From assembly GCA_026391655.1 (NCBI GenBank), contig JAPLDR010000055.1, positions 1-64,000 on the forward strand: 64,000 bases of DNA. Reading direction: 5' to 3'. The stretch is from Bacteroidia bacterium (GTDB lineage: Bacteria; Bacteroidota; Bacteroidia; Bacteroidales; Prolixibacteraceae). The notes below the pieces were generated by a model, which made no database searches, was not told where the DNA came from, and saw nothing but the letters and a program-made list of their open reading frames with translations. Positions 1,353-53,500 of this stretch are shown one piece after another (within the stretch, counting starts at the first letter, position 1; each line of letters begins with the position of its first letter). Position numbers and translations under genes: made by a program.

Positions 1353-1730
1353 TTAGTTTTGAACTTCAAATTCCTTCATCGCAGCAACCAACACTGCCAC
1401 ACTTTCGATTGGCATTGCATTGTAAATAGAAGCCCTGAATCCTCCAACACTACGATGACCTTCGATTCCGAGGATATTGAGTTCTTTTGCTTTGGCCAGG
1501 AATGCTTTTTCAAGTTCTTCATAACCAGCCGCCATCACAAATACAACATTCATTCGGGAACGATCTTCGGGATCGGGAACCGGACAAGTGAACATTTTAT
1601 TACGGTCGATTTCATCGTAAAGCAATTTTGCCTTGGTAAGGTTCTTCAATTCCATCGCTTTGATACCGCCATTCTCCTTCAACCATAGTAATGTCTGAAG
1701 CGCCGCAAAAACAGCAATACATGGAGGCGA
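1353..1730 (-). pseudogene. serC: serC, 3' part (phosphoserine aminotransferase, frame-broken)
   Basis: About 125 residues in a different frame from the 5' part. Reading on from the break gives SPPCIAVF...LWLKENGG, then DRSRMNVVF and GHRSVGGFRASIYNAMP, which is the conserved C-terminal domain of phosphoserine aminotransferase. An in-frame TTG at 1682 could start a 109-residue fragment, but this would lack the PLP-binding domain and could not be an enzyme. Homology resumes at about 1730, immediately next to where it ends in the 5' part, so the two halves belong to one gene. The two halves sum to about 349 residues against about 355 for Bacteroides SerC. Confidence 0.85.
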
Positions 1731-2401
1731 ATATGTGTCATGTAATTGATCATCGTAGGAATAGGCCTGCCGGATTTACCAAGTGCATCTTTGCGCACAA
1801 TAACCAGTGTTACACCAGCAGGAGCCAGGTTTTTCTGCGCTCCGGCATAGATAAGGTCGTATTTCGAAATATCGATCGGGCGGCTAAAAATATCGGAAGA
1901 CATATCTGCGACCAGCTTCACAGGAGCATCAACATCTTTGTAGATTTGAGTTCCAAATATGGTATTATTTGTAGTAATATGAAGATAATCAATATCTGAA
2001 GGGATACTTACATTTTTTGGAATGTAATTGTAGTTTTTATCTTTCGAAGATGCTACGGTGATCAGCTCGCCAAAAAACTTAGCCTCTTTAAGCGCTTTTG
2101 ATGCCCACACTCCCGTATCGTAATATCCTGCTTTTGTTTTCAGCAAGTTAAAGGGAACCATGTAAAACTGGGTACTTGCACCACCTTGCAAAAAAAGTAC
2201 TTCGTAACCTTCGGGTACTTCGAGCAACTCTTTTACAAGCGAAATAGCCTGATCCATAACTACAATGAACTCTTTACTCCGGTGCGAAATTTCCATTACA
2301 GAAAGCGAGGTGCCTGCAAAATTAATTACTGCTTCAGCAGTTTTCTGAATCGTAAACTCAGGAAGAATGGATGGACCTGCATAAAAATTGTGCTTTTTCA
2401 T
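1679..2401 (-). pseudogene. serC: serC, 5' part (phosphoserine aminotransferase, frame-broken)
   Basis: SerC makes phosphoserine from 3-phosphohydroxypyruvate and glutamate using PLP. This part encodes the N-terminal domain ([33 protein letters not shown]) and the PLP-lysine region [12 protein letters not shown]. True homology runs for 224 residues to INYMTHI at about 1730; the last 16 residues before the stop (RLHVLLFL...) are out of frame. In the family about eight residues lie between THI and the next conserved PP; here only two bases remain, so about 22 bases are missing. Catalytic residues are intact on both sides, so a sequencing or assembly error must be excluded before calling it dead. 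A good promoter and operator-like site lie upstream. Confidence 0.85.
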
Positions 2402-2579: not shown

Positions 2580-3668
2580 TCAGGATTGAATAAACGGCAT
2601 CTTAACAATCCTTGCCTTAAGCCGTTTGTTTCGTACAAAAATATAAATTTCGGAGCCTGTTGAACTAAACTCATCATTAATATAACCCATTCCTATTCCT
2701 TTCTCAAGTACCGGTGATTGTGTTCCGGAAGTTACAAAACCAATCACGGCCCCTTCAGAATCGACGATCTCGTATCCATGACGCGGAATTCCCCTGTCGA
2801 TCATTTCAAATCCCTTTAACCGGCGGGTTACACCTTCGTTTTTTTGCCGAAGAAAAAGCTTTTTATCAATAAACTCCTTCGTCGGGGTAAATTTCGTTAT
2901 CCAGCCCAGGCCGGCCTCAATTGGTGAAGTAGTATCATCAATATCATTCCCGTAAAGACAATAACCCATTTCGAGCCTCAGGGTATCGCGGGCACCAAGT
3001 CCGATAGGTTTAATCCCCTCTTCACTTCCAGCTGCAAAAATTGCATCCCAAATTGGTTGTGCATATTCGTTATAAAAATAGAGTTCAAATCCGCCGGCAC
3101 CAGTATATCCTGTAGCAGAGATAATTACGTTATCAATCCCGGCAAAACGTCCCATCTTAAATGTGTAATATTTGATGGATGAGAGATCTGTATCGGTCAA
3201 TTTTTGCAGAATCTGTGTCGCTTTGGGGCCTTGAACAGCCAATTGACTAATTTTATCGGAAGCATTTTCCAATTCTGCGCCCAAATCGTTTTGTGATACA
3301 AGCCAATTCCAGTCTTTTTCAATATTAGAAGCATTCACAACTAGCATATACTTCTGTGGTTCAAAGTAGTATACAAGTAAGTCGTCAACAATTCCACCTT
3401 TTCCATTCGGGAAACACGAATACTGTGCCTGCCCAGGTTGTAAAACTGATGCATCGTTGGTGGTCACCTTTTGAATAAACTTTAAGGCACTGGGACCTTT
3501 CACCCAAATTTCACCCATATGCGACACATCAAAAACGCCGGCACCATTACGGACGGTCATGTGTTCATCTTTTATTCCGGTGTATTCAACCGGCATCTCA
3601 AATCCTGCAAATTCTACAATTTTAGCGTTGCAACGTTTGTGAATCTCATAAAACGGAGTTCTTGTCAT
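2580..3668 (-). CDS. gcvT: Glycine cleavage system T protein (aminomethyltransferase)
   Basis: Protein of 362 residues, the normal GcvT length. It transfers the methylene group from the aminomethyl-lipoyl H protein to tetrahydrofolate, releasing ammonia, in the cytosolic glycine cleavage system. Family marks are the start [24 protein letters not shown], the folate-domain stretch [14 protein letters not shown], and [21 protein letters not shown] around residue 230. It stands alone here, without gcvP or gcvH, between serC and a divergent HPt gene. The ATG at 3668 lies about 24 bases downstream of the predicted transcription start. Pairing with serC in one-carbon/serine metabolism is contextual. 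Confidence 0.95.
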
Positions 3669-3811: not shown

Positions 3812-4159
3812 ATGGCTTTTACAAATTTGGATTATCTGCGAACCATTACGGAGGGCGATACCGAATCGGTTCGCGAATTAATTATTCTCTTTATTGAACA
3901 GGTTCCTGAATTCATCGAAAATCTAAAAAAATTCCTTGCAGAGGGGCAATATGCCGAACTTGGTAGTGAGGCTCATAAAGCTAAATCCTCGGTAATGATT
4001 ATGGGAATGGATGACCTTGGGCACGATATGAAAACGCTCCAGCTTGCTACTATCGCCAGAACCGATGTAGAAACTTACGCTCAGTATGTCAGTAAATTTG
4101 AATTGCAGTGTCTTGCTGCAATTGATGAGCTGAATATAGAGCTAAGAAAAATGAATTAA
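3812..4159 (+). CDS. Histidine phosphotransfer (HPt) domain protein
   Basis: Small stand-alone HPt protein of 115 residues. It has the four-helix-bundle pattern of the family, with the phospho-accepting histidine in EAHKAKSSVMIMGM near residue 55 followed by the typical Lys and Ser. Such proteins shuttle phosphoryl groups between receiver domains in multistep phosphorelays. No histidine kinase is next to it, but the gene 1 kb away (5169-8156) carries a canonical receiver domain, so the two could be partners. It converges on the esterase gene with a 6-base gap. Cytosolic, no signal peptide. Confidence 0.85.
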   Translation: MAFTNLDYLRTITEGDTESVRELIILFIEQVPEFIENLKKFLAEGQYAELGSEAHKAKSSVMIMGMDDLGHDMKTLQLATIARTDVETYAQYVSKFELQCLAAIDELNIELRKMN

Positions 4160-4165
4160 CTCCGA

Positions 4166-5158
4166 TTACTTCGGAAGCATTTTTAAAATTGATTCCGCAA
4201 ATCCATAGGTAGCCGTTTCCACTTCACCAACACTTTTTGAAGTTAGATTGCACGCTATAACATGTGATCCAGCCTCAGGAAAAGCTTGTGCAATTTTCTT
4301 TGTAACGGGAGTTCCCACCTGACGGAACATTTTTAATTCGGATTTCACATCAACTGACTCATCCTGATGTTGCTCATCCTTGTAATAATACCCTACAAAC
4401 AGTGGACACTTGACTTTTTCGAAAACTTCATTTTTCATGGTTACATCGACTAACTGCTGAAGGAATACAAGTCCTTCAGCCCTGAAACTGAAATACCAGT
4501 ATTTCCAGGACTCGCTAGATGGGTCATCCGTCGAAACTCTGAATTTTCCTCCGACTGTCATCCTTGCAATCTGCAAGCCCCAGGGTTTGGATAATAAAAC
4601 AAATGCCTTATTTTTAAGCTTGACATTGGGTGAATAGAGGATAAGCCCGTGAACCATTTTCGGAAAATCAGAAGCAAGTTTAAGGGCCAAAGTTCCTCCA
4701 GTTGAAGTTCCCATGATAATTACCTTCTTGCCCAGCTGTTGTGCAATTACCAAAGCCAGTTTTGCTGACTCGTAAAGACGGTAAGGTGTCATATCTATCA
4801 ATGGATTTTCTGTAACCAGACCATGTGAAGCAAGCCGGGCCAGATAAGCATTGCATCCATATCGTTTCGGAAAATCTTCGTTTGCCGGGAATCCCTCCAT
4901 ATGACTGGCATAAAAGCCATGCAAGTATAGGAGAACATATTCTGTTTGTGAGTGAACTGAATCATTGGCCCAAATAATTTTAGCTTCATTACCTGGACGA
5001 ACTTTTTCAACAGACTCTAAATGTGTGACGAATTCCCCAATATCTCCTTCAATAACAGGTAATTCAGCATTTAAAACCGGAGTTGGCATTTTAGGACCCA
5101 GAAAATAGGTAGCCAGGAGGAGAATTAATATTCCCGAAATAATTTTAATTGTTCTCAT
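4166..5158 (-). CDS. Alpha/beta-hydrolase (membrane-anchored esterase/lipase-like)
   Basis: Protein of 330 residues from the ATG at 5158. A TTG 24 bases upstream also gives an open frame but would overlap the preceding stop. An N-terminal hydrophobic segment (IISGILILLLATYFLG) acts as signal or anchor. The alpha/beta-hydrolase core follows: LLYLHGFYAS (oxyanion region), then the nucleophile elbow GTSTGGT around residue 165, a possible acid in the KDEQHQD region, and the catalytic His in EAGSHVI near the C terminus. The substrate cannot be predicted. It begins 10 bases after the receiver/PEP-synthase-like gene, so they are probably cotranscribed. Confidence 0.8.
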   Translation of the reverse strand: MRTIKIISGILILLLATYFLGPKMPTPVLNAELPVIEGDIGEFVTHLESVEKVRPGNEAKIIWANDSVHSQTEYVLLYLHGFYASHMEGFPANEDFPKRYGCNAYLARLASHGLVTENPLIDMTPYRLYESAKLALVIAQQLGKKVIIMGTSTGGTLALKLASDFPKMVHGLILYSPNVKLKNKAFVLLSKPWGLQIARMTVGGKFRVSTDDPSSESWKYWYFSFRAEGLVFLQQLVDVTMKNEVFEKVKCPLFVGYYYKDEQHQDESVDVKSELKMFRQVGTPVTKKIAQAFPEAGSHVIACNLTSKSVGEVETATYGFAESILKMLPK

Positions 5159-5168
5159 CGATATATTT

Positions 5169-8156
5169 TTAAAATTCGTCAACCCTGATTAGTGCCGTTC
5201 GTTTCCGACCATCCATTAATATCTCAAGTTCATTTTTAAACCTGACATGCCTGACATATTTCCCTTCCCATATTAACTCTTGTTTCTCTAAAAGATCAAG
5301 TTTAACAAAATCGGTACTATTAATATCGGGAATCGAAAAATATCCCACATTCATTGAAGTCACATTGTGGAAAAAATGGGAACCAAGCGAAGCATCGAGC
5401 GGATAATTTGGTAATCCTATCTCAACAATTACCTTAGCATTATTTATTTGAGCCCAATTGACAGGAATCCCCGTATATTCGTCTCTTGATCCCCAGCGAC
5501 CCGGCCCAATCAGTACGTATTGACGATTACTGGTATTAAATTTTTCATTTACTTCAGCAATCTCGTTGGCAATTTCTCTGGTTTTTGTCCGGTCAAAACT
5601 TTTTACATCTACATAGACTACATCTGAAATACCTGATAGTCTGCCATTTCCCATACCTTTATTCGACAACAACAAAAGCTTCGAACTATCGAGTGAACCC
5701 AGTTCTATTTCAATGTCCTCCTCGCGTCGGATCAAAGGTTTTAGTTGAAGCAGATAAAAAGTTGGCCATCCGTTCTCTCCACTGTTCAGATCGAGTGCAT
5801 ATTCCATTTCGACGGGAGAGCCCATTGCCTGTTTGAAAAGTTTCATCAGCAACAACAAAGTATCAGCAAGCGGAACATGTTGATATTCAAGAATATTAGC
5901 AAAGTTAATTACCCGTGGACCACGGGTTCCGATACCTGGTGTAATATAATCATTTTCAATACTATATGTCGACGCACAGTGCTCAAGAATACCATCCTTC
6001 TCTGCTTCCGATATTTTATACTTCCGAATGGCAGCCAATTCGCCTTCCATAGTAAGGTCGAAACTACTCTGAGTCATATCAATCGCGTAAAATTCACGTT
6101 GGGAATCGCGTATCTGATCCTGAATAGAATTGTTATTCAATGCCGGATATTTTGGACAAAATCTGTAAGCTTTTTCGCCTCCTACAACTGCTTGTCCCAA
6201 ACCCACTGCAATCACAGCAAAGCCATCATCAGGCTCCATATAGGAATAGGGATAGTAATTAAACGACTGAGCGACTCCGCTGATATCGGCATAAAATTTC
6301 TGATTATGCTCATGACCTACAACAGGTTGAAGGATAACCGCCATTTTTTCCTCTTCAATTTTATAATTTATAGCACTGAAATAGGCCCTTGCATCATCAC
6401 TGAACACCGAAGCATAAACCAGTTTAACTGCCGTTCTTAGCTGATCAAAACGCACATTCTCATCAGGATGGCTATTTGGAATCAGGAAGGTTGAATAGAC
6501 ACCGGAAAAAGGCCGAAGCAGTGAATCTTCGAAGAGTCCCGAAGATCTTACGGCCAAAGGCTGGTTCACCTGGCGCACATATTGCATTAACCTTTCCTTT
6601 AGTGGCTGGCTTAGTGTCGCGTTAAGAAATGCCTCATTCACTTTTTTGAAATCGGTCTGATGATACGCAACATCATACAAATTATTACTTTCGAGAAATT
6701 TATCAAACTCTATGGCTCCTATGATAGCTGTGGCTGGCATACGGATATTAATGCCCGGAATTAAAGCTTTCATGTCCATGTTTTCCATCATATTGCTCAT
6801 AAATGCGAGACCTCTCCCTTTTCCTCCAAGCGATCCAAGACCCATTCTCACAATATAGCGGTTACCATTTACCAGTAAAGGATCGAAATTAATAATCCTT
6901 CCGCGGTTTCTCTTCTCATGCACATCGGCAAAAATGCTCAGGCACATATCCCGGATCTTAGCAGGATCATCAAATTGTTCTGTTTTATATGGTATCAGCC
7001 TTTCGGCCATATTTATTTCACCGCGAGCAACAAGCCATGTCGAAAAGTCGTTTGACTTTCCGTGAAAAACCAACGACTCAACAGGTACTTGTCTTACGAG
7101 ATCTTCAAATTCGTGAAGATTTCGGGCAATACCAATCTGGACTCCGTCACCATTTCGGAAGATAAAATCACCAAACCCTAAGTTGCTATTAATAAATTCA
7201 TTAATATCATGCGAAAGCGTATCTGAATTTTTATTGATGAATCCTGCCTGAATTTCATCTGCCCTAACGGAGTTTGATAATTCGTGCGACTGCAATAATA
7301 ATGGAATCGGATAACGGAGGTTTTGTTTCACAAATTTAAGCAGTTCAACACCTGCATCCTCATCATTAACTCCGTTTCGCGCAAATTTGACATCAGAGAT
7401 TACGCAAAGAAGATAATCCTTATATTCGTGAATCACCTGCAAAGCATCTTCATAAGTACTAACTAACAATACTTTAGGACGTGCCCTATATTTGAATATT
7501 TTATGAAGTTCATCCGTAGACTCGTCAGATACCAATGCCTGCGTCTGAGTCATCACACTGGCAAACAGCAGTGGTAAATAACGCGAATAATATTTTATAG
7601 AATCTTCAACCAGTAAGATAACCCTCACTCCGCCAAGCCTTGTATCTTTTGATACATTTTTCTTATCCTCGATGTATTTGATCATTGCCAGAAAAACAAT
7701 GGAATTACCATTCCAAACAAATACACGGTCAATAGCCGGTATCTTTGTAGCGGCAATTTTAAAAAACCGCACGTCGCTGTTATTATTGACGAGTAATAAT
7801 ATGGGGATGCGTGGCTTGGCAATGTTGATCTCATCTACAATTTTCAACGGCAACTCCTTGTCAACACCAGCCATGATGATGACCAGATCGAAATGCCGCG
7901 TATTAAGGATTTTGGCTACATCTTCCTGAGTATTGACACTGGTAAACCGGGGCGCAGCATACAAATTTAATTGCAGGTATTCTCCAAATATTTTATCCGA
8001 AAACTGTCCTTCTCTTTCGATGGCATACGAGTCGTATAATGTAGCAAAGAGCAAAACTTCTTTCACTTTATTGGGCATCAGCTCCTGAAAAATGTCTCTG
8101 TCGGTTTTCCTTCTTTTATAAATATCAGATATTGTGATGTCTTCGAATTTTTCCAT
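5169..8156 (-). CDS. Receiver-domain / PEP-synthase N-terminal-domain hybrid protein
   Basis: Large cytosolic protein of 995 residues from the ATG at 8156 (a TTG lies 15 bases upstream). Residues about 1-165 resemble a degenerate receiver fold (LLFATLYDS, FDLVIIMAG). Residues about 170-330 form a canonical response-regulator receiver: acidic pair in VILLVEDS, phospho-acceptor Asp in CVISDVKF, and Lys in GFINKNS. Then comes an ATP-grasp PEP/pyruvate-binding domain (GSLGGKGRGLAFM, QPLAVRSSGLFEDSLLRPFSGVYST, MAVILQPVVG). The swivelling phosphohistidine domain and the PEP-binding barrel of true PEP synthase/PPDK are absent, so it cannot run the full PEP reaction alone. It is usually annotated as a PEP synthase or PEP/pyruvate-binding protein. 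The C-terminal part (LIGPGRWGSRDEYTGIPV) is conserved but of unknown role. Confidence 0.8.
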   Translation of the reverse strand: MEKFEDITISDIYKRRKTDRDIFQELMPNKVKEVLLFATLYDSYAIEREGQFSDKIFGEYLQLNLYAAPRFTSVNTQEDVAKILNTRHFDLVIIMAGVDKELPLKIVDEINIAKPRIPILLLVNNNSDVRFFKIAATKIPAIDRVFVWNGNSIVFLAMIKYIEDKKNVSKDTRLGGVRVILLVEDSIKYYSRYLPLLFASVMTQTQALVSDESTDELHKIFKYRARPKVLLVSTYEDALQVIHEYKDYLLCVISDVKFARNGVNDEDAGVELLKFVKQNLRYPIPLLLQSHELSNSVRADEIQAGFINKNSDTLSHDINEFINSNLGFGDFIFRNGDGVQIGIARNLHEFEDLVRQVPVESLVFHGKSNDFSTWLVARGEINMAERLIPYKTEQFDDPAKIRDMCLSIFADVHEKRNRGRIINFDPLLVNGNRYIVRMGLGSLGGKGRGLAFMSNMMENMDMKALIPGINIRMPATAIIGAIEFDKFLESNNLYDVAYHQTDFKKVNEAFLNATLSQPLKERLMQYVRQVNQPLAVRSSGLFEDSLLRPFSGVYSTFLIPNSHPDENVRFDQLRTAVKLVYASVFSDDARAYFSAINYKIEEEKMAVILQPVVGHEHNQKFYADISGVAQSFNYYPYSYMEPDDGFAVIAVGLGQAVVGGEKAYRFCPKYPALNNNSIQDQIRDSQREFYAIDMTQSSFDLTMEGELAAIRKYKISEAEKDGILEHCASTYSIENDYITPGIGTRGPRVINFANILEYQHVPLADTLLLLMKLFKQAMGSPVEMEYALDLNSGENGWPTFYLLQLKPLIRREEDIEIELGSLDSSKLLLLSNKGMGNGRLSGISDVVYVDVKSFDRTKTREIANEIAEVNEKFNTSNRQYVLIGPGRWGSRDEYTGIPVNWAQINNAKVIVEIGLPNYPLDASLGSHFFHNVTSMNVGYFSIPDINSTDFVKLDLLEKQELIWEGKYVRHVRFKNELEILMDGRKRTALIRVDEF

Positions 8157-8171
8157 AGATTGATCTTTCAA

Positions 8172-10177: not shown

Positions 10178-11194
10178 TTATTCAACTACCCATGTATTGC
10201 CGCTGCTGAGAAGATCATCGATTGACTTGATCTTTGCCTTACATTTTACTTCTGCAATCTGCTTCTCCATCATCTGATCATAGACCAACACTTCTACTGC
10301 ACGAATAACTCCCATTGCCACAGGAAAATCGGGCAATTTCATCCCGATCAGTTGCTGATGAAGGTAACCGTTTGGCTCGGTAACATCATGAACAAGAATA
10401 TCCTCACGAGTAATACCATTTTCTCCGATTGTGACCACTTTCAGTAATCCTTTTTCAAAGACAAGACCCTTGTCTTTCAAAATTCCAAAAATCATCGGTT
10501 CACCATGTTTCAAAAAGATCTGGCGTTCCTCACGAAACTTTGGATCTGAAATTTCAGCATGAATACCATCGTTGAAGATGACACAATTCTGCAAAACCTC
10601 CACAACCGATGTACCTTCGTGCTGTGCTGCCGCTTCGAATACTTCCTGTGAATGTTTGATGTTATTATCAACAGCTCTTGCAAAAAAGGTTCCACCGGCT
10701 CCAAGCACCAACTGTCCCGGAATAAAAGGGTTCTCAATAGTTCCCTGCGGAGAAGTTTTTGTAACGGCCCCCCGATCGGATGTGGGTGAATACTGACCTT
10801 TAGTAAGTCCGTAAATTTTATTATTAAATAAAATCAGATTGATGTTGATATTCCTGCGGATGACATGGATGAAATGATTCCCGCCAATGGCCAATGCATC
10901 ACCATCGCCGGTTATCTCCCACACACAAAGTTTTGGGTTGGCACATTTCACGCCTGAAGCCACTGCCGCAGCACGACCATGAATGGTATGAAAACCATAT
11001 GTGCTCATATAGTAAGGAAATCTCGAAGAACAGCCTATCCCTGAAACAACTACAAAATCCTCTTGTTTAATACCCAGTGTGGCCATTGCTTTCTGGACAG
11101 AATTCAGTACAGCGTGATCTCCGCAACCCGGACACCAACGTACTTCATTTTCACTTTTAAAATCTTTTAATGTATATTCTATAATTTCAGTCAT
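10178..11194 (-). CDS. korB: 2-oxoacid:ferredoxin oxidoreductase, beta subunit
   Basis: Protein of 338 residues. It is the TPP-binding subunit of 2-oxoglutarate (or related 2-oxoacid):ferredoxin oxidoreductase, which converts the oxoacid plus CoA to acyl-CoA, CO2 and reduced ferredoxin. Visible marks are the cysteine motif RWCPGCGDHAVL near the N terminus, GIGCSSR, and the TPP motif from GDGDALAIGG to NN around residues 95-125. It starts 2 bases after the korA stop, so the two are one operon. Substrate (2-oxoglutarate versus another oxoacid) is assigned by subunit architecture and similarity, not proven. Confidence 0.9.
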   Translation of the reverse strand: MTEIIEYTLKDFKSENEVRWCPGCGDHAVLNSVQKAMATLGIKQEDFVVVSGIGCSSRFPYYMSTYGFHTIHGRAAAVASGVKCANPKLCVWEITGDGDALAIGGNHFIHVIRRNININLILFNNKIYGLTKGQYSPTSDRGAVTKTSPQGTIENPFIPGQLVLGAGGTFFARAVDNNIKHSQEVFEAAAQHEGTSVVEVLQNCVIFNDGIHAEISDPKFREERQIFLKHGEPMIFGILKDKGLVFEKGLLKVVTIGENGITREDILVHDVTEPNGYLHQQLIGMKLPDFPVAMGVIRAVEVLVYDQMMEKQIAEVKCKAKIKSIDDLLSSGNTWVVE

Positions 11195-11196
11195 CT

Positions 11197-13035
11197 TTAT
11201 TCCTCCAAAAGCTTTTCAAAATTGTCAACTAATTCCTGAATTGTGAACGGAAGTCCCTGTATCTTATTGTATTGGTGATAGACAAAGCCAGGGACTTTAT
11301 CACGCAGATAACTTGCAAACTGACCAAGATTCAATTCACAGACTACAATCTTTTTGTACCGGGCGAAAACCTCAGCGGTATTGGCAGGTAATGGCCTGAT
11401 GTAGTTAAAATGAGCCAGCCCGATCTTCACTCCCCTGGTTCTCAATTCACGAACAGAACTCTCCATATAACCGAATGTTCCTCCCCAGCCAACAACCAGC
11501 AAATCACCTTGCTGGTCACCGTAAGCATCAAGGCCGGGAATCATATCAACCACACGATTTACTTTCTCATCGCGGATTTCAACCATTTTTTGATGATTAA
11601 CTGCATCATGGCTGACATTACCGTTGGCATCTTTCTCAAGCCCCCCAATACGGTGCTGAAAACCTGCCATTCCGGGAATTGCCCATTCGCGAGCCAATGT
11701 TTTTTCATCCCGGCCATATGGTTTATAACTTGCCGTATTAGTAGCAAATCGAGGTGTAATCGATGGTAACTCACTAAATGCCGGTATTTTCCAAGGTTCT
11801 GAACCATTTCCCAAAAATCCGTCAGTTAACAAAACCACCGGAACCATTCGCTCGAGAGCTATTTTTGCAGAAACATAGGCAAAATGAAAACAATCTGAAG
11901 GAGTTGATGCAGCAATTACAACAACCGGACTCTCACCATTGCGACCATATAAGGCCTGAAGCAGGTCGGATTGTTCGGTTTTTGTTGGCAGTCCCGTTGA
12001 AGGTCCGCCACGCTGTACATTTACTACAACAAGTGGTAATTCGGCCATTACACTCAGACCCAAAGCTTCGGATTTAAGTGCAAAACCGGGTCCTGAAGTG
12101 GTGGTAACAGCAAGTTTTCCGGCAAATGATGCACCTATAGCTGTACAGATTCCTGCAATTTCATCCTCCGCCTGAAAGCTTTTTACTCCAAGATCCTTTC
12201 TATCTGCAAGTGCCTGCAAAATTTCAGTTGCGGGAGTAATAGGATAAGAACCAATAAATAACTCTAGCTTAGCTTTATGTGCAGCGGCCAACAAACCCCA
12301 GGCTGTAGCCAGGTTTCCATTGATGTTCCGGTAAGTTCCTTTTTCAATCTCAGCCGGATGAACTACATACCTTGGAGTCAGATGCTCAAGTGTCCATCCA
12401 TAATTCCAACCGGCACGTAAAACCCTAAGATTTGTCTCAACAACGACTGCACTTTTAGCAAATTTTTTGTTAATGAATTTCTCGATATAATCGAGTGGCT
12501 TACTAAAAACCCAGCAGATTAATCCAAGCGCAAACATATTTTTGCTTCTTAGAACACTCTTATTGTCAATGTCAAGATCTTTTAAAGCTTCTTTTGTAAG
12601 GCTCGTAATTGGAACCGCAACCTTAATAAAATCCTCAAGATTGCATTCAATAAAAGGATCGTCAGTTTTTAGTTTCGCCTTATCAAAATTCTTTTGGGTG
12701 AAACTATCACTATCATAGAAAATTGTACCACCAGGGCGAACAAAACCGGCATTTGCCTTGATTGCAGCAGGGTTCATTGCCACCAGCACATGGGCAAAGT
12801 CGCCGGGAGTGGTAATTTTGCCTGTTCCAAATTGAACCTGAAATCCTGATATCCCTGCAACGGTACCCTGAGGCGCTCTGATCTCTGAAGGATAATCGGG
12901 AAAGGTGGAAATATCATTTCCAAACAATGCCGAGGTATCAGAAAAAAGTGCACCTGTCAACTGCATACCATCTCCGGAGTCACCCGAAAACCGGATTACA
13001 ACCTCCTCCAGTTCTATGACCTTTGTTTCAATCAT
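11197..13035 (-). CDS. korA: 2-oxoacid:ferredoxin oxidoreductase, fused gamma-alpha subunit
   Basis: Protein of 612 residues. The N-terminal gamma domain (about 1-190: VIRFSGDSGDGMQLTGALFSDTSA, IRAPQGTVAGISGFQVQFG) is fused to the alpha/pyrimidine-binding domain (GLLAAAHKAKLELFIGSYPITPATEIL, TTSGPGFALKSEALGLSVMAELPLVVVNVQRGGPSTGLPT). The C-terminal transketolase-like part contains LLVVGWGGTFGYMESSVRELRTRG. This architecture is typical of Bacteroidota KorA. With KorB it forms the cytosolic enzyme feeding reduced ferredoxin and acyl-CoA into central metabolism. It is first in the operon and divergent from the gamma-carbonic-anhydrase-like gene. Confidence 0.92.
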   Translation of the reverse strand: MIETKVIELEEVVIRFSGDSGDGMQLTGALFSDTSALFGNDISTFPDYPSEIRAPQGTVAGISGFQVQFGTGKITTPGDFAHVLVAMNPAAIKANAGFVRPGGTIFYDSDSFTQKNFDKAKLKTDDPFIECNLEDFIKVAVPITSLTKEALKDLDIDNKSVLRSKNMFALGLICWVFSKPLDYIEKFINKKFAKSAVVVETNLRVLRAGWNYGWTLEHLTPRYVVHPAEIEKGTYRNINGNLATAWGLLAAAHKAKLELFIGSYPITPATEILQALADRKDLGVKSFQAEDEIAGICTAIGASFAGKLAVTTTSGPGFALKSEALGLSVMAELPLVVVNVQRGGPSTGLPTKTEQSDLLQALYGRNGESPVVVIAASTPSDCFHFAYVSAKIALERMVPVVLLTDGFLGNGSEPWKIPAFSELPSITPRFATNTASYKPYGRDEKTLAREWAIPGMAGFQHRIGGLEKDANGNVSHDAVNHQKMVEIRDEKVNRVVDMIPGLDAYGDQQGDLLVVGWGGTFGYMESSVRELRTRGVKIGLAHFNYIRPLPANTAEVFARYKKIVVCELNLGQFASYLRDKVPGFVYHQYNKIQGLPFTIQELVDNFEKLLEE

Positions 13036-40959: not shown

Positions 40960-41554
40960 TTAATCTTCCAGTACGAATTTGATTGTTTTTTTCTGGTTTC
41001 GGTCAATGATGGTAAGTAAGTATACTCCGGCCGCCATATCCCGAAGCATCCAGCTGGTTCTGGAGCTGATTTTTAGCATTCAAATTAGCCAATAGCTTGC
41101 CGTTTACGGAATAGAGGTAGAAACGTGCATCAGAACTCACTTCTCCGTTTATATAAATGGTCTTTGCAATTGAACGAACTTTAAGCTCATTATTAGCTGG
41201 TTGAGTTGATCCGATCGCATCGTATGTATGAAGGAAGAACCTGCCTGTCCCTTTTGTATTTTGATCCAGGGTAGCCGTATAGGTTGCACCTTTGAGATCA
41301 AGCCTGATAAAAATTTTGGTTAACCTGTCCTCCAGTACTGCCTGACATCCTGAAGGCAGGTTGACCGTTTCGGCCTTAAATGTAATCTGACCTCCGGCTT
41401 TATAATCAATCCCCAGTGGAATCACGTACTGATCGTAATCCTGATCGGGAAGACATTGCAAGGTATAATCTATTGCATTATCTTCCACCAATTTAGAATA
41501 AACTGAAAAGTCCGGATTTGCTATATACAGGCCTGCATCATAACCAGGATCCAT
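40960..41554 (-). pseudogene. Detached 3' end of the giant surface protein, with T9SS sorting domain
   Basis: The downstream end of the giant gene lies in a different frame. From about 41620 the frame reads TECSSARDQTSSSSTEIKFVTNTTKGMDPGYDAGLYIANPDFSVYSKL. Homology then runs to QLDASG at about 41040, where an extra base shifts back to the original frame: MAAGVYLLTII then KTIKFVLED and stop TAA at 40960-40962. The last about 75 residues (from TIYINGEVSSDARFYLYSVNGKLLA) are a type A T9SS C-terminal sorting domain. Within this segment, 41003-41554 is open for 183 codons. Read together with 41521-56010 it restores one protein of about 5,016 residues. Two indels of -1 and +1 could be sequencing errors. 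Confidence 0.85.
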
Positions 41555-44500
41555 TCCTTTGGTAGTATTTGTAACGAATTTGATCTCCGTTGAGCTTGAT
41601 GATGTCTGATCCCTGGCAGAGCTGCATTCGGTAATTGCATAGCTTTGGTAAACGTTACAGCCCCTCCGCCAGTTTTCGATTTGACAAAGAATCCCTGAGC
41701 AGTTTGCACACTTGTGATCGTGGTTGCATTATTTATGACAATATATTCAGGTGTAGTATGGCTGGTCGTTATATTGTTGGTATCCCAAAGATAAACAGCA
41801 ATATAGTTAGGATCAAGCTGACTTATATTTGTCGCATTTAAAAAGCCATCGTTGGCGACATCCCGAATATTGAGTGCGCAGGTAAAAGGATTTCCAATAC
41901 AGTTCCATCCCCAGTCGGGTGCAATACCTGTTCTGGTCAGAGTAACATTAACCGTATTAAGATTTGGAATCCCTGTGGCATCGACTCTGCCTGTACCAGG
42001 TATTACACCTACTCCAGGCTCATTGTAATTATAAATCGTTCGGATATTAAAACCTTTACCAAGCCCAATGCTACCAACAGTTGTACTTGTTGTCGGATAA
42101 TAAAAATATGGATTCCAGATATTGGTAGTGGTATTATAATCGCGGATACCTGCAGCAACTAAAGCATCCGGGTTAAGATTAAATAAATCAGGAATTTCAG
42201 GATTGTATTGTAAAAAATAATGAACCGACTCGTCTTTAATCGGTGAAGAATAAAGATGCCAGTTATTCGTATGAGACATATACCGCTCTACCTTTGCCGT
42301 CCCGTTTCCGATTGCACTGCTAAACAAATCACTATGAACAAATGATCCTGTCAAAACTGAATCAGATTTAAGAACTAAACATGACCAATAGTCAATCTGA
42401 AGTGGATAATATACCGGGAAAGGAGCACGATAATCGAATTTTGTATAATTGTCAACGGTAAGCGTGGCACCCGGAGGAACAGTAAGCACCCCTCTCGTAA
42501 TTGTACAATCGTGAGGGACATAAATGGAAGCGGTGGTTGCAAGCCATACACCAAATACATTATAGATACCCAGATTATACATACTATTGTTGAGATAACG
42601 ATTCATTTCGATGGTTTGCTTTGCATAGGGATCACCGGCATATACTACGGTAGGCATTGTAGTGGTGGCATCCAACCGGCCGGCAGGAGCGGTAATCTCA
42701 TGAAGCAAACGCATTGTCCCATATAGCGTTACATTATTTGAATTGTTTATCAGAATGTCATAGACCTCATCATTGGTAAATGTAGCCGCCGGAATTGTCT
42801 GAGCCAAAGTCCCTGCAAACTCGATGGTAGAGTATTGTGCCGAGGCATTAATATGTGCACTGCTGCCTAAATACAAGTTCCTGTTCACCGTGAGTTTTTT
42901 GTTGGAAGGTATAACCGTACTTCTGATTGTGGCATCAATAAGACTGCCAATCGTGCGATTGATATCCAGATGCAAATCGCGTATAGCGGCTGAGCCGTAA
43001 TTCGCAACTGTGGCAAATTCGACATCATCTCCGGCAGCCGGAATGTAACTTGCCGTCCAGTTACTTGCTGTGCCCCAGTCTATGCTGTTAAACCCATACC
43101 AATAGTTTACACGTACAGAAACCATCATGATCACAGTATTCGAAGTAGCCGGATTGCCGGTGACACAAGTAAGCGATGAGGTCAGCACAACAGTGACGAT
43201 ATCGCCGTCAGACAAAGTAGAACTGTTATAGGTGGGTGAAGGACCATTGGCTACATTCGTACCGTTCACTTTCCACTGATAACTTGGAGTAAGTCCGCCA
43301 TTTACAGGAGTTGCTGTAAAAGTAACATTGGTACCCGTAGTGGTCGGATTGGGAGATGCTACCAGACTTACACTGACAGGAACATTGGGATTAACGATCA
43401 GATCAACTGATGAAGTAGCCGGAAGTATTTGCTGAAATACTATATCGTCCAGTGCAAAATCGTTTCCGTTCGCTATTGTATTTTGATTAATCAATTCCAG
43501 GTTTAACGATGTATTGCTTCCTGAAGTTGCGTTATAAGTAAACTGTTTCCAGGAGCAGGTAGCCAGATCTGCAGTATAAACCGGTCCTACGGCAACTCCA
43601 TTTATATATAACTGCAATTGGGAAGGCGCCAGTGCAACAACACTTTGTACCCAATAAGTAAACTGGTAGCTGGCCCCGGGAATTACAGGCACAGATTGGG
43701 TCCATATTACAGCTCCTGCCACAGGAGAACCGTTGACCACCATTTGTTTTCCGGTACCTGTGGTATGGTCACCGCAGGAAATAAAATTCGGATGCTCTGA
43801 ATGAGGATCGACAAGTACATCATAAGTACTCTCGGGCCAAAGTCCGCTGGTACCAGGTATAGCAAGAGCATAACTGCTGCCAAAACTTGTATTTCCAGCT
43901 TCGAAATCACCATTGGTAACCAAATTACCGCCAACAACAACATTACCTGTTACAGTATAAGTTCCTGTCATGTCAGTTGTAACATTTGTTAAAACCGGAT
44001 TTTGAAGGGTAGAGTAAAAACTGTTCGGCCCTTGCCAGAAACGGTTCAAAATAGTTGATTCTCCTACGCTTGTCAGGTTCACCGTTGAGCCGGCACACGC
44101 TGTTCCTGGGCCTCCTGCGGTAATTAATGGCGAAACAAACACGATACCAACGCATGCAACATTTAGTGTTGTAGCACCTGATGCTAAAGCAATATTAACA
44201 CCCGTATAATTACCGGCAGACAATCCTGATTTCAGACGGGCATAAATGGTGGTCGGATTTAATACACCTCCGGTTTGTGTTAGTGTTATTGGGCCTGATT
44301 GATATGTACCACCAGAAGTCAAACAAATTTCGTAGTTCGTGGGAGGTGTGACACTTACATTTGCCGAGAGGGAAGCACCACTCACGGTAAACGATTGCGG
44401 AGAAGATGGCCCTGTCGTTGCCATATAACCAAATCCGGTAAGCGTTGTCTTTGAAACCATAATGGTGGCTGTATTAACTACTGCTCCGCTGCAACCAACA

Positions 44501-47500
44501 CTTTTTGTTATTGCTCCGGTTGATGATACAGGAATATTGACGGGAGGATAGGTAGCAACTGCCAATCCGGATTTCAAACGAACGTAAATCGTGGTTGTAT
44601 TAACTGTCCCACCGGACTGAGTCAGCGTAAGGGCTGTTGATTGATAGGTGCCACCCGAAGACAATGAAATTTCGTAGTTTGTTGCAGGCGTGATCAATAT
44701 ATTATTTGTGAGCAAGGTACCACTCACGGTGAACGATTGCGGAGCTGACGGACCTGACCCTAAAGTATAAATAAATCCGGCCAGGGATGATGTAGAAATG
44801 AGAATAGTGTTTGAACCCATCACTGTTCCGTCACAGGTAACATTTTTAGGAGTTGCACTGGTCGATGACGAAACAATATTTTCAGAATAGCCACCAATGC
44901 CCAACCCACTTTTCATGCGAACGTAAATAGTAGTAGCGCTTAATGTCCCTCCGGACTGGGTCAGTGTAATAGGAGTTGAAACAAATCCTGAACCCGAAGT
45001 TGTCGAAATTTCAAAGCTTGCTGAAGGTGTAACCGTTACATTCGCCACTAGATTAGTACCACTTACCGTAAACGTCTGCTGACTTGATGGACCTCCCGTG
45101 TATGGATAGCTAAAACCGGTTAAGTTGGGAGTAGCTGTAATTACAGGGATAGCTGTTACCGCTCCGCTACAGGCTACATTTTTCGGCGTTAATCCGTTCG
45201 ATGAGCAAACGATATTTTCCGGAGCAATCGTACCAATTGCCAATCCCGCTTTCAAACGAACGTAAATAGTTGTTGTGGCAACATTTCCACTATTCACCAA
45301 CAGCGTAATGGGGTTACTGGCAACAAACGCGCCACCTGTTCCCGTTGAGATTTCAAAGTTAGCTGTTGGTGTGACAACCAGATTGGCCGAGAGATTAGTA
45401 CCACTCACGGTGAACGACTGCTCGGCAGAGGGACCAAAGCCAACAGGATAATTTAATCCGGTTAAGGAGGTTGTGGAAGTAGTGATTGCAGGTACACTGC
45501 TGATTGTTAAAACTGCAGCATTTGACTCATTGGTAGCAACATAAGGATTGGGTGATACATTATTTGTACTACTCAGTATGGCGTTTCTGTAAATGTAATA
45601 GGTACCCGGAGTATTGAATGGAGCAACCGATGCACTTGGAGTATACGTGGCTCCCGTAGCTCCCGAAATAGTGGTTCTTGTACCTGAAGGAGTTGTACTA
45701 TAGCTCCATTGATAGCCCGTTCCGCTTAGCGTTATTCCTGTGGGCAGCGTCCCGAATACATTCCCGCTGATGGTTGACCAGGTGCCTCCGACATAAATAC
45801 TCTGTGATATATTAGTCGTGAGTGTATTGGACATAACAAGGGTCAGGTTCTGAAATACTACCTGGTTTGCACCTCCATTTTCGTAATAATCATATAACAA
45901 CGTACTCGCACCATTGAGGTTCATCAATATCCTGGGACGGGAAGTATAGGCCTGATCAACCCAATTATTATACAACAGCGTTCCATCCACAGTGAGGCGA
46001 CTGCCGTCATCCGAACCCAGATCGGCAATGTATAAACCCCTTTTCGTTGAATTCATCCGGTACTGAACCGAGAAAGTTTCTGTATAAATACTTCGGGCTC
46101 CAAGACTGGAAGTTATAGGAAAACAAACTGTAGCGCCACCAAAACTTTGATTAAAAGCTTCAGTTTCAGTATAAGTCCCGTAATAGGTAGTAAAGCTCAA
46201 ACCATCATAGACATGACCAATCCACGAATCCGTTCCTGCCAAATTTGAGTTATCAGGTGATGCTGACGGGAAAGTGGCTGTTACCTGTGTCCGTAAACTT
46301 TCACAACCTCCGACACCCAAAATGGAAACCCAATAGTTGGTAGTAACAGCAATAACCGGAGTTACATAGGTATTATCTGCATTGTTCGCGCTGGTTTTTA
46401 AAAGATTCCCGGCAGTGGCTGCATCATACCATTTGTATGTTTCACCCGCCACTGCCCCGGAGGCAGATAACGTAGCAGTTGAACCAATACAAATTATTGC
46501 TCCGCTTGTTGTTGGTGCTGAAGGAATAAGGGCTACCGTTACTGCCAGTGTTCGTGCCGTGCCGCTACCGCAGGAGGTTGAAGGTGTAACCTGTACATTT
46601 CCTGAACCTGCACCAACAGTGACTGTTACTGAATTCGTTGTGCCTCCTCCGGTTTGTGTCCATCCTGACGGGAATGCCCAGGTATAGGTTACGCCGGAAA
46701 CATTGGTAACACTATAGGTTTGCGAAGAAGCAATGCACGGGGTTGCACTACCCGTTATTGCACCAGGCTGGGCAGGAATACCGGCGGCTGGAACAACTGC
46801 AAGTGTTCGCACCGTTCCGTTACCACATGAATTCGAAGGTGTAACCGTTACATTTCCTGTATTTGCGCCAACAGTTACAGTTACTGTACTTGTTGTTTGT
46901 CCGCCAGTTATTGTCCATCCTGACGGGAATGTCCAGGTATAAGTAACTCCGGAAACATTGGTAACACTATAGGTTTGCGAAGAACCCGTGCATGGTGTGG
47001 CATTGCCCGTTATTGTGCTTGGTTGGGCAGGTACCGTTGTTGGCGTTACTGCCAGTGTACGTGCGGGTCCGTAACATCCGCCATTCGAAGGTGCAACCTG
47101 TACATCTCCTGTACCTGCACCAACAGTGACTGTTACTGAATTTGTTGTTCCTCCGGCGGTTTGTGTCCATCCTGTGGGGAATGTCCAGTTATAGGTCACT
47201 CCGGAAACTAAGGTAACACTATAGATTTGAGAAGTAGTCTGGCATGGGGTTGCACTGCCGGTTATTGTGCTGGGTTGAGCTGGTAGCAGTATTGGTGTGA
47301 CAGCCAGGGTACGTGTGTTTCCGTTACCGCATGAATTCGAAGGTGTAACCACTATATTTCCGGAACCCGTACCAACAGTTACTGTTACTGAATTCGTCGT
47401 TCCTCCGGCGGTTATTGTCCATCCAGTGGGGAATGTCCAGGTATAGGTAACTCCCGCAACGTTGGTAACGCTATAGGTTTGCGAAGAAGGCCGGCATGGA

Positions 47501-50500
47501 GTTGCACTGCCGGTTATTGCACTTGGCTGGGCTGGTACCGTTGTTGGCGCTACAGCCAAAGTAGTTGCTGTTCCGTTACCACAGGCATTTGATGGTGTAA
47601 CTTGTACAAATCCGGAACCAGCACCAACAGTTACCGTTACTGAATTAGTTGTCCCTCCGCCCGTTTGTGTCCAACCTGTGGGGAAGGTCCAGGTATAGGT
47701 GACTCCGGTAACATTGGTAACGCTGTAAGTCTGCGAAGATGCCTGGCATGGGGTTGCACTGCCCGTTATTACACTGGGTTGGGCAGGTACCGTGGTTGGC
47801 GCTACTGCCAAAGTACGTGCCGTCCCGTTACCGCAGGTATTTGAAGGTGTAACCTGTATATTTCCTGAACCTGAGCCAACGGTTACAGTAATTGAATTCG
47901 TTGTGCCTCCACCGTTTTGTGTCCATCCTGCCGGTAATGCCCAGGTGTAGGTGACTCCGGAAACATTGGTAACACTATATACCTGGGAAGAAGTCTGGCA
48001 CGGGGTTGTACTGCCGGTTATTACGCTGGGTTGGGCCGGTAAAGTGGTTGTGGCATAGGTAATAGTGCCTGAAGAGACAGAAGTGCCACAATCATTAGAA
48101 GCTCTTACCCTATAATAATAAGTGGTTCCTGCTGTTAACCCGACAACATCAAATGTGGTAAAATTTCCAACATTAGAATTCTGATAGCCTGTTACATAAC
48201 TGCCAAACCCAATAACCGTGGATACATCCAAAAAATATGATGTGGCATAGGTTGATGCTGTCCAATTGGCTGTTATCTGTGTACACGCTGCGCCTGAACC
48301 TGCATTAGCTACCGGTGCTGCCGGTGTTGTGATTACCGTCCAGGTACAAATGGTACTCCATGCCGAAGTTGCACATACACCACCGCCTGTCCGGCGTGAC
48401 TGAACAATGACACTGCCTGTTGCTCCCGTAGTGGTGATCGCAGCTCCGTTGGTGTAAGCGCTGTAAGTACTTCCTCCGTTAATGCTATACTGGTATTCAT
48501 CCGCTGCTCCTGTCGGACCGCCAGATCCTGCTGCTCCTGTTACAGTTCCTGTGTTAAATCCTGCACAGATGGTACTGCCGCTGGCCGGTGATGCAACGCC
48601 AAGTGTTGGTGCTACAGGTGTTGACCCTACTGTCCACGTGCTTATCGTACTCCATGCCGTGTTGGAACAGCCGTAGCTTCCGCCCGTTCTGCGTGACTGG
48701 ACAATCACACTCGTGGTTGCTCCCGTGGTGGTGATGGCAGATCCGCTTGTGTAAGCGCTGTAAGTCCCTCCTCCGTTAATACTATACTGGTATTCATTGG
48801 CTGCTCCTGTTGAACCGCCCGAACCGCCTGTTCCTGTGACAGTTCCCGTGTTAAATCCTGCACAGATGATACTGCCGTTTGCCGGTGATGCAACACTAAG
48901 CGTTGGTGCTGCCGGTGCTGATCCTACTGTCCAGGTACTTATCGTACTCCATGCCGAGTTGGAACAACCATAACTTCCGCCCGTTCTGTGTGACTGAACA
49001 ATCACACTCGTGGTTGCTCCCGTGGTGGTGATCGCAGCTCCGTTGACATAAGTGCTGTAAGAAGTTCCTCCGTTAATGCTGTACTGGTATTCATCTGCTG
49101 CTCCTGTTGAACCGCCCGATCCTGCTGATCCTGTTACTGTTCCCGTGTTAAAACCTGCACAGATGATACTGCCGTTGGCCGGTGATGCCGCGCTAAGCGT
49201 TGGTGCTGCAGGTGTTGTACCTATTGTCCAGGTGCTTATCGTACTCCATGCCGAAGTTGCACAGACACCACCGCCTGTTCGGCGTGACTGAACAATTACA
49301 CTCGTGGTTGCTCCTGTAGTGGTGATCGCAGATCCGTTGGTGTAAGCGCTGTAAGTACTTCCTCCGTTAATGCTATACTGGTATTCATCTGCTGCTCCTG
49401 TCGGACCGCCCGATCCTGCTGCTCCTGTCACAGTTCCTGTGTTAAATCCTGCACAGATGGTACTGCCGTTGGCCGGTGAAGCGACGCCAAGGGTTGGTGC
49501 TACAGGTGTTGTACCTACTGTCCACGTGCTTATCGTACTCCATGCCGTGTTGGAACAGCCGTAACTACCACCCGTTCGACGTGACTGAACAATCACACTC
49601 GTGGTTGCTCCAGTAGTAGTGATCGCAGATCCGCTGGTGTAAGCGCTGTAAGTCCCTCCTCCGTTAATGCTATACTGGTATTCATTGGCTGCTCCTGTTG
49701 ATCCGCCCGAACCCCCTGTTCCCGTTACTGTTCCTGTATTAAATCCTGCACAGATAATACTGCCGTTTGCCGGTGAAGCAACGCCAAGTGTTGGTGCAAC
49801 AGGTGCTGTACCATAAGTCCAGATTGTATAGGTATTATAAGCAGATGCAATACATAGTCCGCCGCTTCTTCTTGCTCTTACCTGTACTGATGTAGTCCCT
49901 CCGGTTGTTGTAATTGCTGCACTATTGGTATATGTTGACCAGTTGGTACCACCGTTAATGCTATACTGATATTCATCACTGCCACCGCCGGAACCACTGG
50001 TAAAAGTTGCTGTACCGGAATTGTAGCCTGCACAAATAACACTGCCACTTACCGGTGAAGCAGAACTTAAGGTTGGCGATACAGGTGTAGCATCGACAGT
50101 TAAATTACTTCCGTTGTCTGTTCCTGTTATAACAGGAGTACTGCTAACTACACGAATTCTGTAACCCGATCCGCTTGCAGTACCTGCCGGAATAGTGCCA
50201 CTAATAGTTCCCGCAGTGGTTTGTGTTAAAGACCCGATATTTACAGGTGTTGTAAAACTACCGCTTGCGTCAGATAACTGGGCGGTAAAAACGTTTCCAG
50301 AGGTAAAGGTTCCCGTGATGGTAAATGCAACAGAAACAGCTGCCCCGGCACAAAATGGCGAACCGGAGATGGCACTTATTGTAATGGATCTCTTCGTCGC
50401 CATCACAAAATATCCCAGGGAATTACCTGTATTATCAGAATTTATAACTGACGTACCGCTCACTGTACCATTTAGCGAGGAATAAGCCCCGTTTATAGTT

Positions 50501-53500
50501 GCACTTCTTCCAATAGCATTCAATCCTGCAAGTGCAGTCTGACGTGTTAATGAAACGGATCCGTTCGTATAAGTACCCGACACTACAGAGGCCAACCAAT
50601 ACTCAGTTGTACTTAACGATCCCAATGGATTTGTTGCTGTTCCCCCGGCGTTTCCTGTAAAAGCTTCAACCCTCAGACTTGGGGCTGTCCCGGTGATTCC
50701 TGTTATGCCAAACGGTAAATAGGTAGTACCTTTTCCAACAGGATAAAGATAAGTTTGACCGGTTGCCAATTGCCAGATTAACGCACCATTTACAAAACTC
50801 GTAGTCGATCCGCCAGTGACAGCACTGGTCGAATTATTGGTCAATGTTACTGTATTTGCACCCGAAGTTAATATACCGCTCGTTAAATTTAATGTCCCGC
50901 TAACAGCTGTACTACTTGTAAGAGTAACACCTGCTGCGTTATTTATGGTAAGGTTATTAGCACCTGTCAGTCCGTTTCCGGTTACCTGGGCTGATGCTCC
51001 GTCATAATTGTAATTGGCACCGGCATTGTATGTTTTTGTCCCGGTAAGCTGAATACTTCCTGTAGCAGCTGTTGTTGAAAGCCCTTGTGCATGAGCTGTG
51101 ATAATCCCGGCTCCTGAATTTAATGTAAATGTTCCATCGCTTCCATTAATAATTGAAGTACCAACATCCAATATAGAAGGGCTGTTAACGCTGAAATTTA
51201 CTGTATTTGTGTATGTTCCGCCTGTATTTGAATAGTTATGCGTAGTGTTGCCAATAAAATTGATGGCACCCGGCCAGGTACTTGTTGTCGTATTTATAAA
51301 ACCGCCTGAAAGAGTAAAGTTACCGCCAACATTCAGAGTCCCAATTGATACATTATCATTTTCATTCATGGCTAATGTTCCTCCGGTAATACTCACATTA
51401 CCTGTGACTGACAACGTGGAACTTGCCCCTCCTGTAACAATGGTAAAATATCCGGTACCGCTTATTGTAAAATTTCCACCTACAGTCATCGTGCAGGAAC
51501 CCGTGCTATTGTTCATTTTGAAAGCAGCATCATTGTTGATGACAACATCACCGGTCACAGCCATTGTGAAACCATTAGCGGTATTCGACATCCGAAGGGC
51601 TTTTGTGTTAGGATCGGCCGGAGCAGTTCCCGTTCCTGAAACCGTAAGATTACCTGCAATGGTAATATTGGATTCCAAATAAAAGTTTGTGGTCTGCAAA
51701 GGACAATTCCATGTGAAATTTCCAAATGTTTGTCCCACTCCTCCGGTAAAACCAGTACTTGCCGCAATTCCTGTTATATTACAATTTGAAGCAGCATTCC
51801 ATGTTGCAGCAGGGATTGTGCCACCATCCTGGGCATGTTGATAAGTGCCTCCACTGCCGAAGGCCAATGCACCTGTGGTCGTAATAGTACCCGAGTTAAC
51901 CAATGTTCCATCAACCGTCATATCTGTACCTGCACCATTGGCAATCGTTAATGTTTGACCGGTATTAACGGTTACCTGCCCACCAGTATTCACTGTAACC
52001 AGATCAACCGATACCGATGCAGTAACTGTAACAACGTGTGTATTTTGAATGGTAATTGTGTTTGCAGCATTTGTTGGGGTTAACGTTGCATTAAACCAGT
52101 TAGTGCCGTCATGCGAACTCTCCCAGGTTGCAGTTGCATTCCAGTTGCCTGTTGCCTTTGTACGGAAATAGTCGGTTGTCTGGGAAACATCTGCAGGGGT
52201 TGCATTGGTTTCAACTCCGGAACTCCAGACAGTACCTATTCGTGTGAAAAACTTGAAAAAGTATTGCGTTCCATTGATCAGGCTGGTTACAGTCTGGGGC
52301 GAAGCAGTGCCTTTATAAACCACATAGCCTCCACCAGTGAACGCAGTTCCCGATCCGTAAGTTAAACTGGCAGTATATGCCGTACCATCGCCACTTGGTG
52401 TACCGCTTACCGATGAACCGGCTTTGGCTACGATCATTATTCCATCGGAACAACTTGCTGGGTTTGTCCACGAAATTGCGGCTGCAGCATTTCCGGCAAC
52501 AGCAGACTGAGCGGTTACATTATTAGCTCCGGTGACGATGAATGCACCCGATACAGCACTGGTTATATCTGTCCCGCAATTGCTGTGGACAATGCAATAG
52601 TAATAAAGTGTCCCGGCAACAGTAGCAGATGGTGTGTAGCTGGCACTGGTTGCACCTGTTAATAATGTTCCGCCTGAATTGCTTGATATGGTGTTGCTGT
52701 ACCACTGATAAGTTATTGTCCCTGTACCGGTTGCTGTTACAGAAATTGCTGTAAAAGTTCCATTAATACATTGTGTCTGAGTAGCAGTTGACTGACTGGA
52801 TATGGCAGTAGCAGGATTAACTATAAATGCACCTGAAACTGTGCTTGTTACAGGAGAGCACGTTGAACTACCAACAATACAATAATAATAAAGTGTTCCG
52901 GCAACAGCAGCCGATGGTGTATAGCTGGCACTGGTGGCTCCCGTTAATAATGTTCCTCCGGAATTGCTTGATGTGGTATTGCTGTACCACTGATAAGTTA
53001 AACCTACTCCGGTTGCAGTTACTGAAATTGCAGTAAAAGTCCCTGCTATACACTGTGTCTGTGTTGCTGTTGACTGACTGGTTATAGCTGTAGCAGGATT
53101 AACCGTTACTGTAATTGCTGAATTGCTGCTTACACAACCTGTTGTTGAATTCTTTACTGTTAATGTCGCATTAAATGTTCCCGAACCTCCTGTTGGTGCT
53201 GCAGGTACAGTAATAGCTATCGGAGATGCTCCTAAATTAGCATCTGTTACATTTACAAAACCTGCGGCTAATGCCGCAGCATTAAAGACAATGCTGTATT
53301 TATTTGGTGTACCTGTTGTTGCACTGTAAGTAAGATTGGCTGTGGTTGTTCCAAGACACACTGCCGGATTCGAACCTAATGTTATGGTTGGTGCAGTACA
53401 TGAAGAGCTACTAATATTAATAATACCAGTTGTGGCTGCAAAATAGGTGTCGTTTTTGTAGGTTGAAGAGGAACTGGTATTACCCCATGATCCGTTTATG

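Follow-up and report, generated by a model that had tools for sequence, protein, structure and literature searches.

PEP synthase and PPDK carry, in the half that is covered by PF01326, an ATP-grasp nucleotide domain with the catalytic set K, R, E/D, E and Q. The protein described here (hereafter, the fusion) shares this domain but lacks both the swivelling phosphohistidine domain and the PEP/pyruvate barrel, and has receivers ahead of the ATP-grasp and an unrelated C-terminal domain (C-domain) behind it. Rifampin phosphotransferase (RPH), the best Foldseek match to the ATP-grasp of the fusion (E=4e-12), contains a His swivelling domain as well as a rifampin-binding domain; the fusion has neither. 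Tandem receivers, one of them degenerate, are a feature that the fusion has in common with PleD-like response regulators; PleD, however, has its canonical receiver in front and a GGDEF diguanylate cyclase as output, whereas in the fusion the canonical receiver is the second one and the output is the ATP-grasp.

Post-translational control of the glutamate/2-oxoglutarate node is known from GlnE/GlnD and GarA-PknG. The fusion family can be likened to these systems by the node and by the Pol-beta nucleotidyltransferase of one of its groups (group D, see below), but has no core domain in common with them. We know of no nitrogen-control modification system that uses a PPDK-type ATP-grasp. Bacteroidales are dominant in the human gut, and their ammonia assimilation runs largely through glutamate dehydrogenase (GDH); little is known of how this enzyme is controlled. 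A receiver-bearing ATP-grasp protein tied to GDH is a concrete gene for studying GDH control in Bacteroidales; the fusion is also a case of half a PEP synthase turned signalling output, with a C-domain for which a search of solved structures gave no significant match.

We analysed a stretch of 64,000 nucleotides (the window) that includes the fusion gene; the features of the locus are listed in Table 1. Comparison of the sequences leads us to propose, with a probability of about 0.5, that the fusion is an ATP-grasp protein that is gated by its receiver and regulates the glutamate/2-oxoglutarate node; it would probably act on GDH, or perhaps, in the clade of the window, on 2-oxoacid:ferredoxin oxidoreductase (KOR), most likely by ATP-dependent phosphotransfer.

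Table 1. Position of the fusion gene, its domains and its neighbours in the window.
Feature	Position	Strand	Residues	Basis or location
HPt protein, 115 aa, H55	3812..4159	+		Pfam, linkage counts, residue counts
Alpha/beta-hydrolase gene, overlaps fusion end	4166..5182	-		downstream of fusion
Fusion, receiver-receiver-ATP-grasp-C-domain	5169..8156	-		ORF call, Pfam, AlphaFold
C-domain, fold without significant PDB match	5172..5726	-	~816-1000	AlphaFold, Foldseek, profile search
ATP-grasp (PPDK_N)	5727..6851	-	~441-815	Pfam, Foldseek, residue counts
Linker, weakly like PF19027 DUF5752	6852..7181	-	331-440	Pfam
Receiver 2, canonical	7182..7622	-	~184-330	AlphaFold, Foldseek, residue counts
Receiver 1, degenerate pseudo-receiver	7638..8060	-	~38-178	AlphaFold, PleD fold match, residue counts
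KorB, 2-oxoacid:ferredoxin oxidoreductase beta	10178..11194	-		upstream of fusion, same strand
KorA, 2-oxoacid:acceptor oxidoreductase alpha	11197..13035	-		TIGR03710 above cut-off

Domain architecture of the fusion protein

The open reading frame of the fusion begins with an ATG at 8156, ends with a stop at 5169-5171 and encodes 995 aa; residues are numbered in the 1000-aa frame, which starts from a TTG at 8171, 15 bases upstream of that ATG. An earlier note on this DNA, made from the sequence, described a degenerate and a canonical receiver fused to the ATP-grasp half of PEP synthase, with the phosphohistidine and PEP-barrel domains missing. Pfam, AlphaFold and Foldseek bear out the fusion, and the domain search for the missing modules confirms their absence: neither the PEP-utilizers (phosphohistidine swivelling) domain, PF00391, nor the PEP/pyruvate barrel, PF02896, has a Pfam match in the fusion, and 1000 aa leaves no room for the barrel. 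The layout of receivers and ATP-grasp thus stands, but the C-terminal ~185 residues, which had not been separated, form a domain of their own.

AlphaFold on 52 orthologues (from the window and Bacteroidales; mean pLDDT 79) gave two beta/alpha receiver-like folds ahead of the ATP-grasp. Foldseek matched the front part of the fusion to the tandem receivers of PleD, and the ATP-grasp to RPH and PPDK. A profile search of PDB sequences recovered the ATP-grasp of PEP synthase/RPH plus weak receiver matches and nothing else; the same database gave no match with the single fusion protein as the query. In the window protein, the linker matches DUF5752 at E=0.0013, which falls short of the curated cut-off; some relatives exceed it. 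Among open-licence papers, no paper on the receiver-receiver-ATP-grasp-C-domain architecture was found.

Across the 97 relatives compared, receiver 1 lacks the Asp expected where beta-3 ends and carries Trp153 at the Lys position; W153 and G155 are invariant. The full response-regulator set (acidic pair, phospho-Asp, Ser/Thr and Lys) is present in receiver 2, where E189, D260 and K314 are each found in 97 of 97 relatives, D190 in 96, and S295 also in 96, with Thr in the remaining one; judged by these residues, receiver 2 is phosphorylatable. PF00072 was matched by Pfam in the receivers of relatives, not in the window copy.

The PPDK_N domain (PF01326) was matched over residues 447-818 (E=3.5e-36). 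K451, R542, E548, D549, Q615, E788, E790 and Q809 are conserved in 97/97 relatives, and position 811 is Lys throughout subfamily A and Arg throughout subfamily B. Alignment with the PPDK of the same genome supported the equivalence of the GGK and IE...Q motifs; the VRS motif was paired by eye, the automatic alignment having slipped there. Judged by these residues, the nucleotide site of the ATP-grasp is catalytically complete, and, as none of the relatives has lost the catalytic set, phosphotransfer is likely. The same domain might instead be a non-catalytic sensor that reads the energy state by binding ATP, perhaps together with a 2-oxoacid, with the receiver setting affinity and GDH controlled by contact only. 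This possibility gains from the fact that every PPDK_N enzyme known to us needs a swivelling phosphohistidine domain, which is found neither in the fusion nor free-standing; however, all positions compared with PPDK are invariant in 97 sequences, which binding alone need not demand, and we regard such a sensor as improbable, though worth keeping in mind. Supply of a phosphohistidine domain in trans was also considered and rejected: apart from PPDK itself, nothing in the genome gave a PEP-utilizers match.

The C-domain, predicted alone by AlphaFold, has a pLDDT of 88 and a pTM of 0.88. Its invariant features are GxGRWG..D..G, E917 and SxGSHFF (with H932), and R892, D897, E917 and H932 make up an invariant polar cluster. 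Taken together, the key residues of receiver 2, ATP site and C-domain are kept in 96-97 of 97 relatives, so that these domains and the pseudo-receiver form a single conserved unit. A Foldseek search of the C-domain against PDB yielded nothing below E=0.07 and no swivelling domain of PPDK or RPH; thus, the C-domain is not a disguised standard phosphohistidine domain. A hidden domain of that kind, considered on account of SxGSHFF and the LGIPV-like motifs, was rejected, as the best Foldseek match (E 0.07) has an unrelated fold. The C-domain profile gave 32 matches in 99 genomes, every one in a fusion-family member with an ATP-grasp, which makes the C-domain an obligate partner of the ATP-grasp of this family.

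Distribution and subfamilies

The fusion family is present in 103 of the 119 Bacteroidales genomes sampled and in 49 of 296 genomes phylum-wide; the window genome has one member. The architecture is conserved over the whole order, which supports the earlier view of the fusion as a real candidate signalling protein.

In a tree of the shared core (FastTree, with local support only), the family falls into four groups, A-D. Group A, which includes the window protein, has the order receivers-ATP-grasp-C. Most Bacteroidales members of group A carry an additional domain of ~165 residues at the N-terminus, which is absent from the clade of the window; it has no Pfam name and looks like a sensory domain. 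This domain (loci L163-L186) contains the motifs WQYP and DEGPFLKEER, and also occurs in the 1060-aa subfamily. Group B proteins, also receivers-ATP-grasp-C, are ~1000 aa long and 36-39% identical to the window protein. Group C (580 aa) consists of the ATP-grasp and C-domain core by itself, and group D (~1060 aa) has a different N-terminus and a C-terminal nucleotidyltransferase (PF01909, Pol-beta); two D-like members are only ~777 aa long and are without the distinctive ends of group D. The ATP-grasp plus C-domain core is therefore common to relatives with the extra N-domain, with no front end, or with an added nucleotidyltransferase. Group D genes at L141 (3099-6284, minus strand) and L138-L149 adjoin a gene for a 428-aa GDH, and in many cases a stand-alone core gene (580 aa) accompanies them.

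Association with glutamate dehydrogenase and KorAB

Gene neighbourhoods were counted with a mechanical ORF caller in locus segments of unequal size. Counted in this way, GDH was present in 30 loci of the 40 distant family members, where any other neighbour family reached 9 of 40 at most. Of 37 distant genomes, 26 had a GDH gene immediately adjacent to a family member; in 31 cases GDH and family member shared a strand with GDH upstream, usually by ~100 bp, the gaps being mostly 60-220 bp. Roughly estimated, with some two GDH genes among 3500, the chance expectation of adjacency is less than 1% per genome. Further Bacteroidales loci had an adjacent GDH in 15 of 40 cases, ten of these divergent from the N-extended form of group A. 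All four groups (A-D) show adjacency, and in many cases each is paired with a separate GDH isoenzyme. Adjacency changes at least 23 times over the family tree, so that descent from one ancestral gene order does not account for it. Depending on the sample, ~30-60% of loci have no GDH nearby.

Among named organisms, Parabacteroides distasonis and Phocaeicola massiliensis have a GDH-linked family member, the nearest GDH being divergent in both. Going by its title, cited in PMC4539542, a 1996 paper by Baggio and Morrison reports a trans-acting gene downstream of gdhA. It is a lead, and only a lead, for the fusion family, and need not concern the family, because GDH is divergent in these two named relatives.

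In the clade of the window, the fusion follows korAB; the gdhA gene of the window genome is on another contig. The models (TIGR03710 for KorA) place KorAB in the class of 2-oxoacid oxidoreductases, not narrowed to one substrate. Among the 43 close loci with full flanks, korA or korB lies at most two genes from the fusion in 22. At locus L220, the genes run korA-korB-fusion-gdhA, and at L202, with two family members, korA-korB-A-B-gdhA. The target, given as unknown in the earlier note, is thereby narrowed: the conserved neighbour is GDH or, for the clade of the window, 2-oxoacid:ferredoxin oxidoreductase.

Because relatives of the fusion lie beside GDH far above chance, the fusion probably controls nitrogen and 2-oxoglutarate handling. 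Direction and mechanism are beyond the reach of gene neighbourhood, and action on GDH is a candidate; transcription or a metabolite could be the target of the family instead. An orphan metabolic enzyme would also fit the association with GDH and KOR, namely, a receiver-gated ATP-dependent ligase or phosphotransferase with a small-molecule product derived from glutamate or 2-oxoglutarate, for which the polar cluster of the C-domain could form an acceptor site. We consider such an enzyme unlikely: stand-alone, receiver-bearing and nucleotidyltransferase-bearing forms all adjoin GDH paralogues, so that regulation looks likelier than a pathway step.

If the fusion is a regulator of GDH, as we favour, the phosphate on D260 would come from a histidine kinase whose gene lies elsewhere, or from another phosphodonor; a PAS histidine kinase neighbours family members in only about six distant loci. 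Phosphorylated receiver 2 would then switch the ATP-grasp core, with the C-domain as its recognising or accepting part. The core, in turn, would change the activity of GDH, perhaps of KOR in the clade of the window, most likely through ATP-dependent phosphotransfer to the partner enzyme or to H932 of the C-domain, and 2-oxoglutarate-glutamate flux would track the nitrogen or energy state. We also put forward, as a speculative extension, that this is an unrecognised form of nitrogen control in Bacteroidota, in which a PPDK-type ATP-grasp, gated by a receiver and lacking a swivelling His, may phosphorylate GDH or, within its own new-fold C-domain, the invariant His, often with a dedicated copy for each GDH isoenzyme.

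The HPt gene near the fusion

The HPt protein encoded near the fusion is a genuine one (PF01627, E=1.5e-6), and its H55 is kept in at least 95% of 28 homologues. The earlier note placed its gene about 1 kb from the fusion and suggested a phosphorelay. The distance holds, within ~1 kb, for the window and its closest relatives, but the two genes are on opposite strands with the alpha/beta-hydrolase gene between them and, hence, are not an operon. The hydrolase gene itself adjoins the fusion in 19 of 80 loci, close relatives only.

A relay in which this HPt phosphorylates the receiver of the fusion would have the required residues on both sides, in the HPt and in receiver 2, as well as the short distance in the closest relatives of the window. 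The linkage counts speak against it: in the close loci where the HPt gene is present, it is adjacent to gcvT in 26 of 26, and it is directly adjacent to the fusion in 0 of 80. The gene-neighbour survey showed HPt and fusion to be rarely neighbours, within two genes of each other in 16 of the 80 loci, all from the closest relatives of the window. Some of these 80 loci end at contig ends; among the 43 that have full flanks, 15 have the HPt gene within reach and 8 have it no more than two genes away. No HPt orthologue was recognised in 80 further, more distant loci with the one query used in the HPt searches, which HPts of other types would escape. The order-wide search found HPt homologues adjoining gcvT in three more genomes, and adjoining the fusion only in the genome of the window. 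The HPt gene is not a specific partner of the fusion, and we consider the relay very improbable. The HPt gene and gcvT (glycine cleavage T protein; 2580-3668, minus strand) are a conserved divergent pair.

Other features of the window

Between korB and the fusion, the segment 8195-10000 (minus strand) contains an Abi-like gene (PF07751; PD-T4-5 and AbiD in PADLOC) and a gene with a weak TIR/ThsB-like C-terminus. As korB and the fusion are neighbours in close relatives, this segment looks like an inserted defence island. A defence role for the fusion was rejected: it has no PADLOC match, and the Abi-like/TIR-like insertion is missing in relatives.

The serC gene (1353-2401, minus strand) is split into two open reading frames, one of 240 aa and a C-terminal piece, where relatives have ~356 aa in one; the gdhA gene of the window genome (G000:C6:61889-63204) is likewise split. 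These apparent frameshifts are either errors of assembly or signs of pseudogenes, and because of them single-base claims outside the fusion need care. A single open reading frame of 4829 aa occupies positions 41521-56010 (minus strand) of the window.
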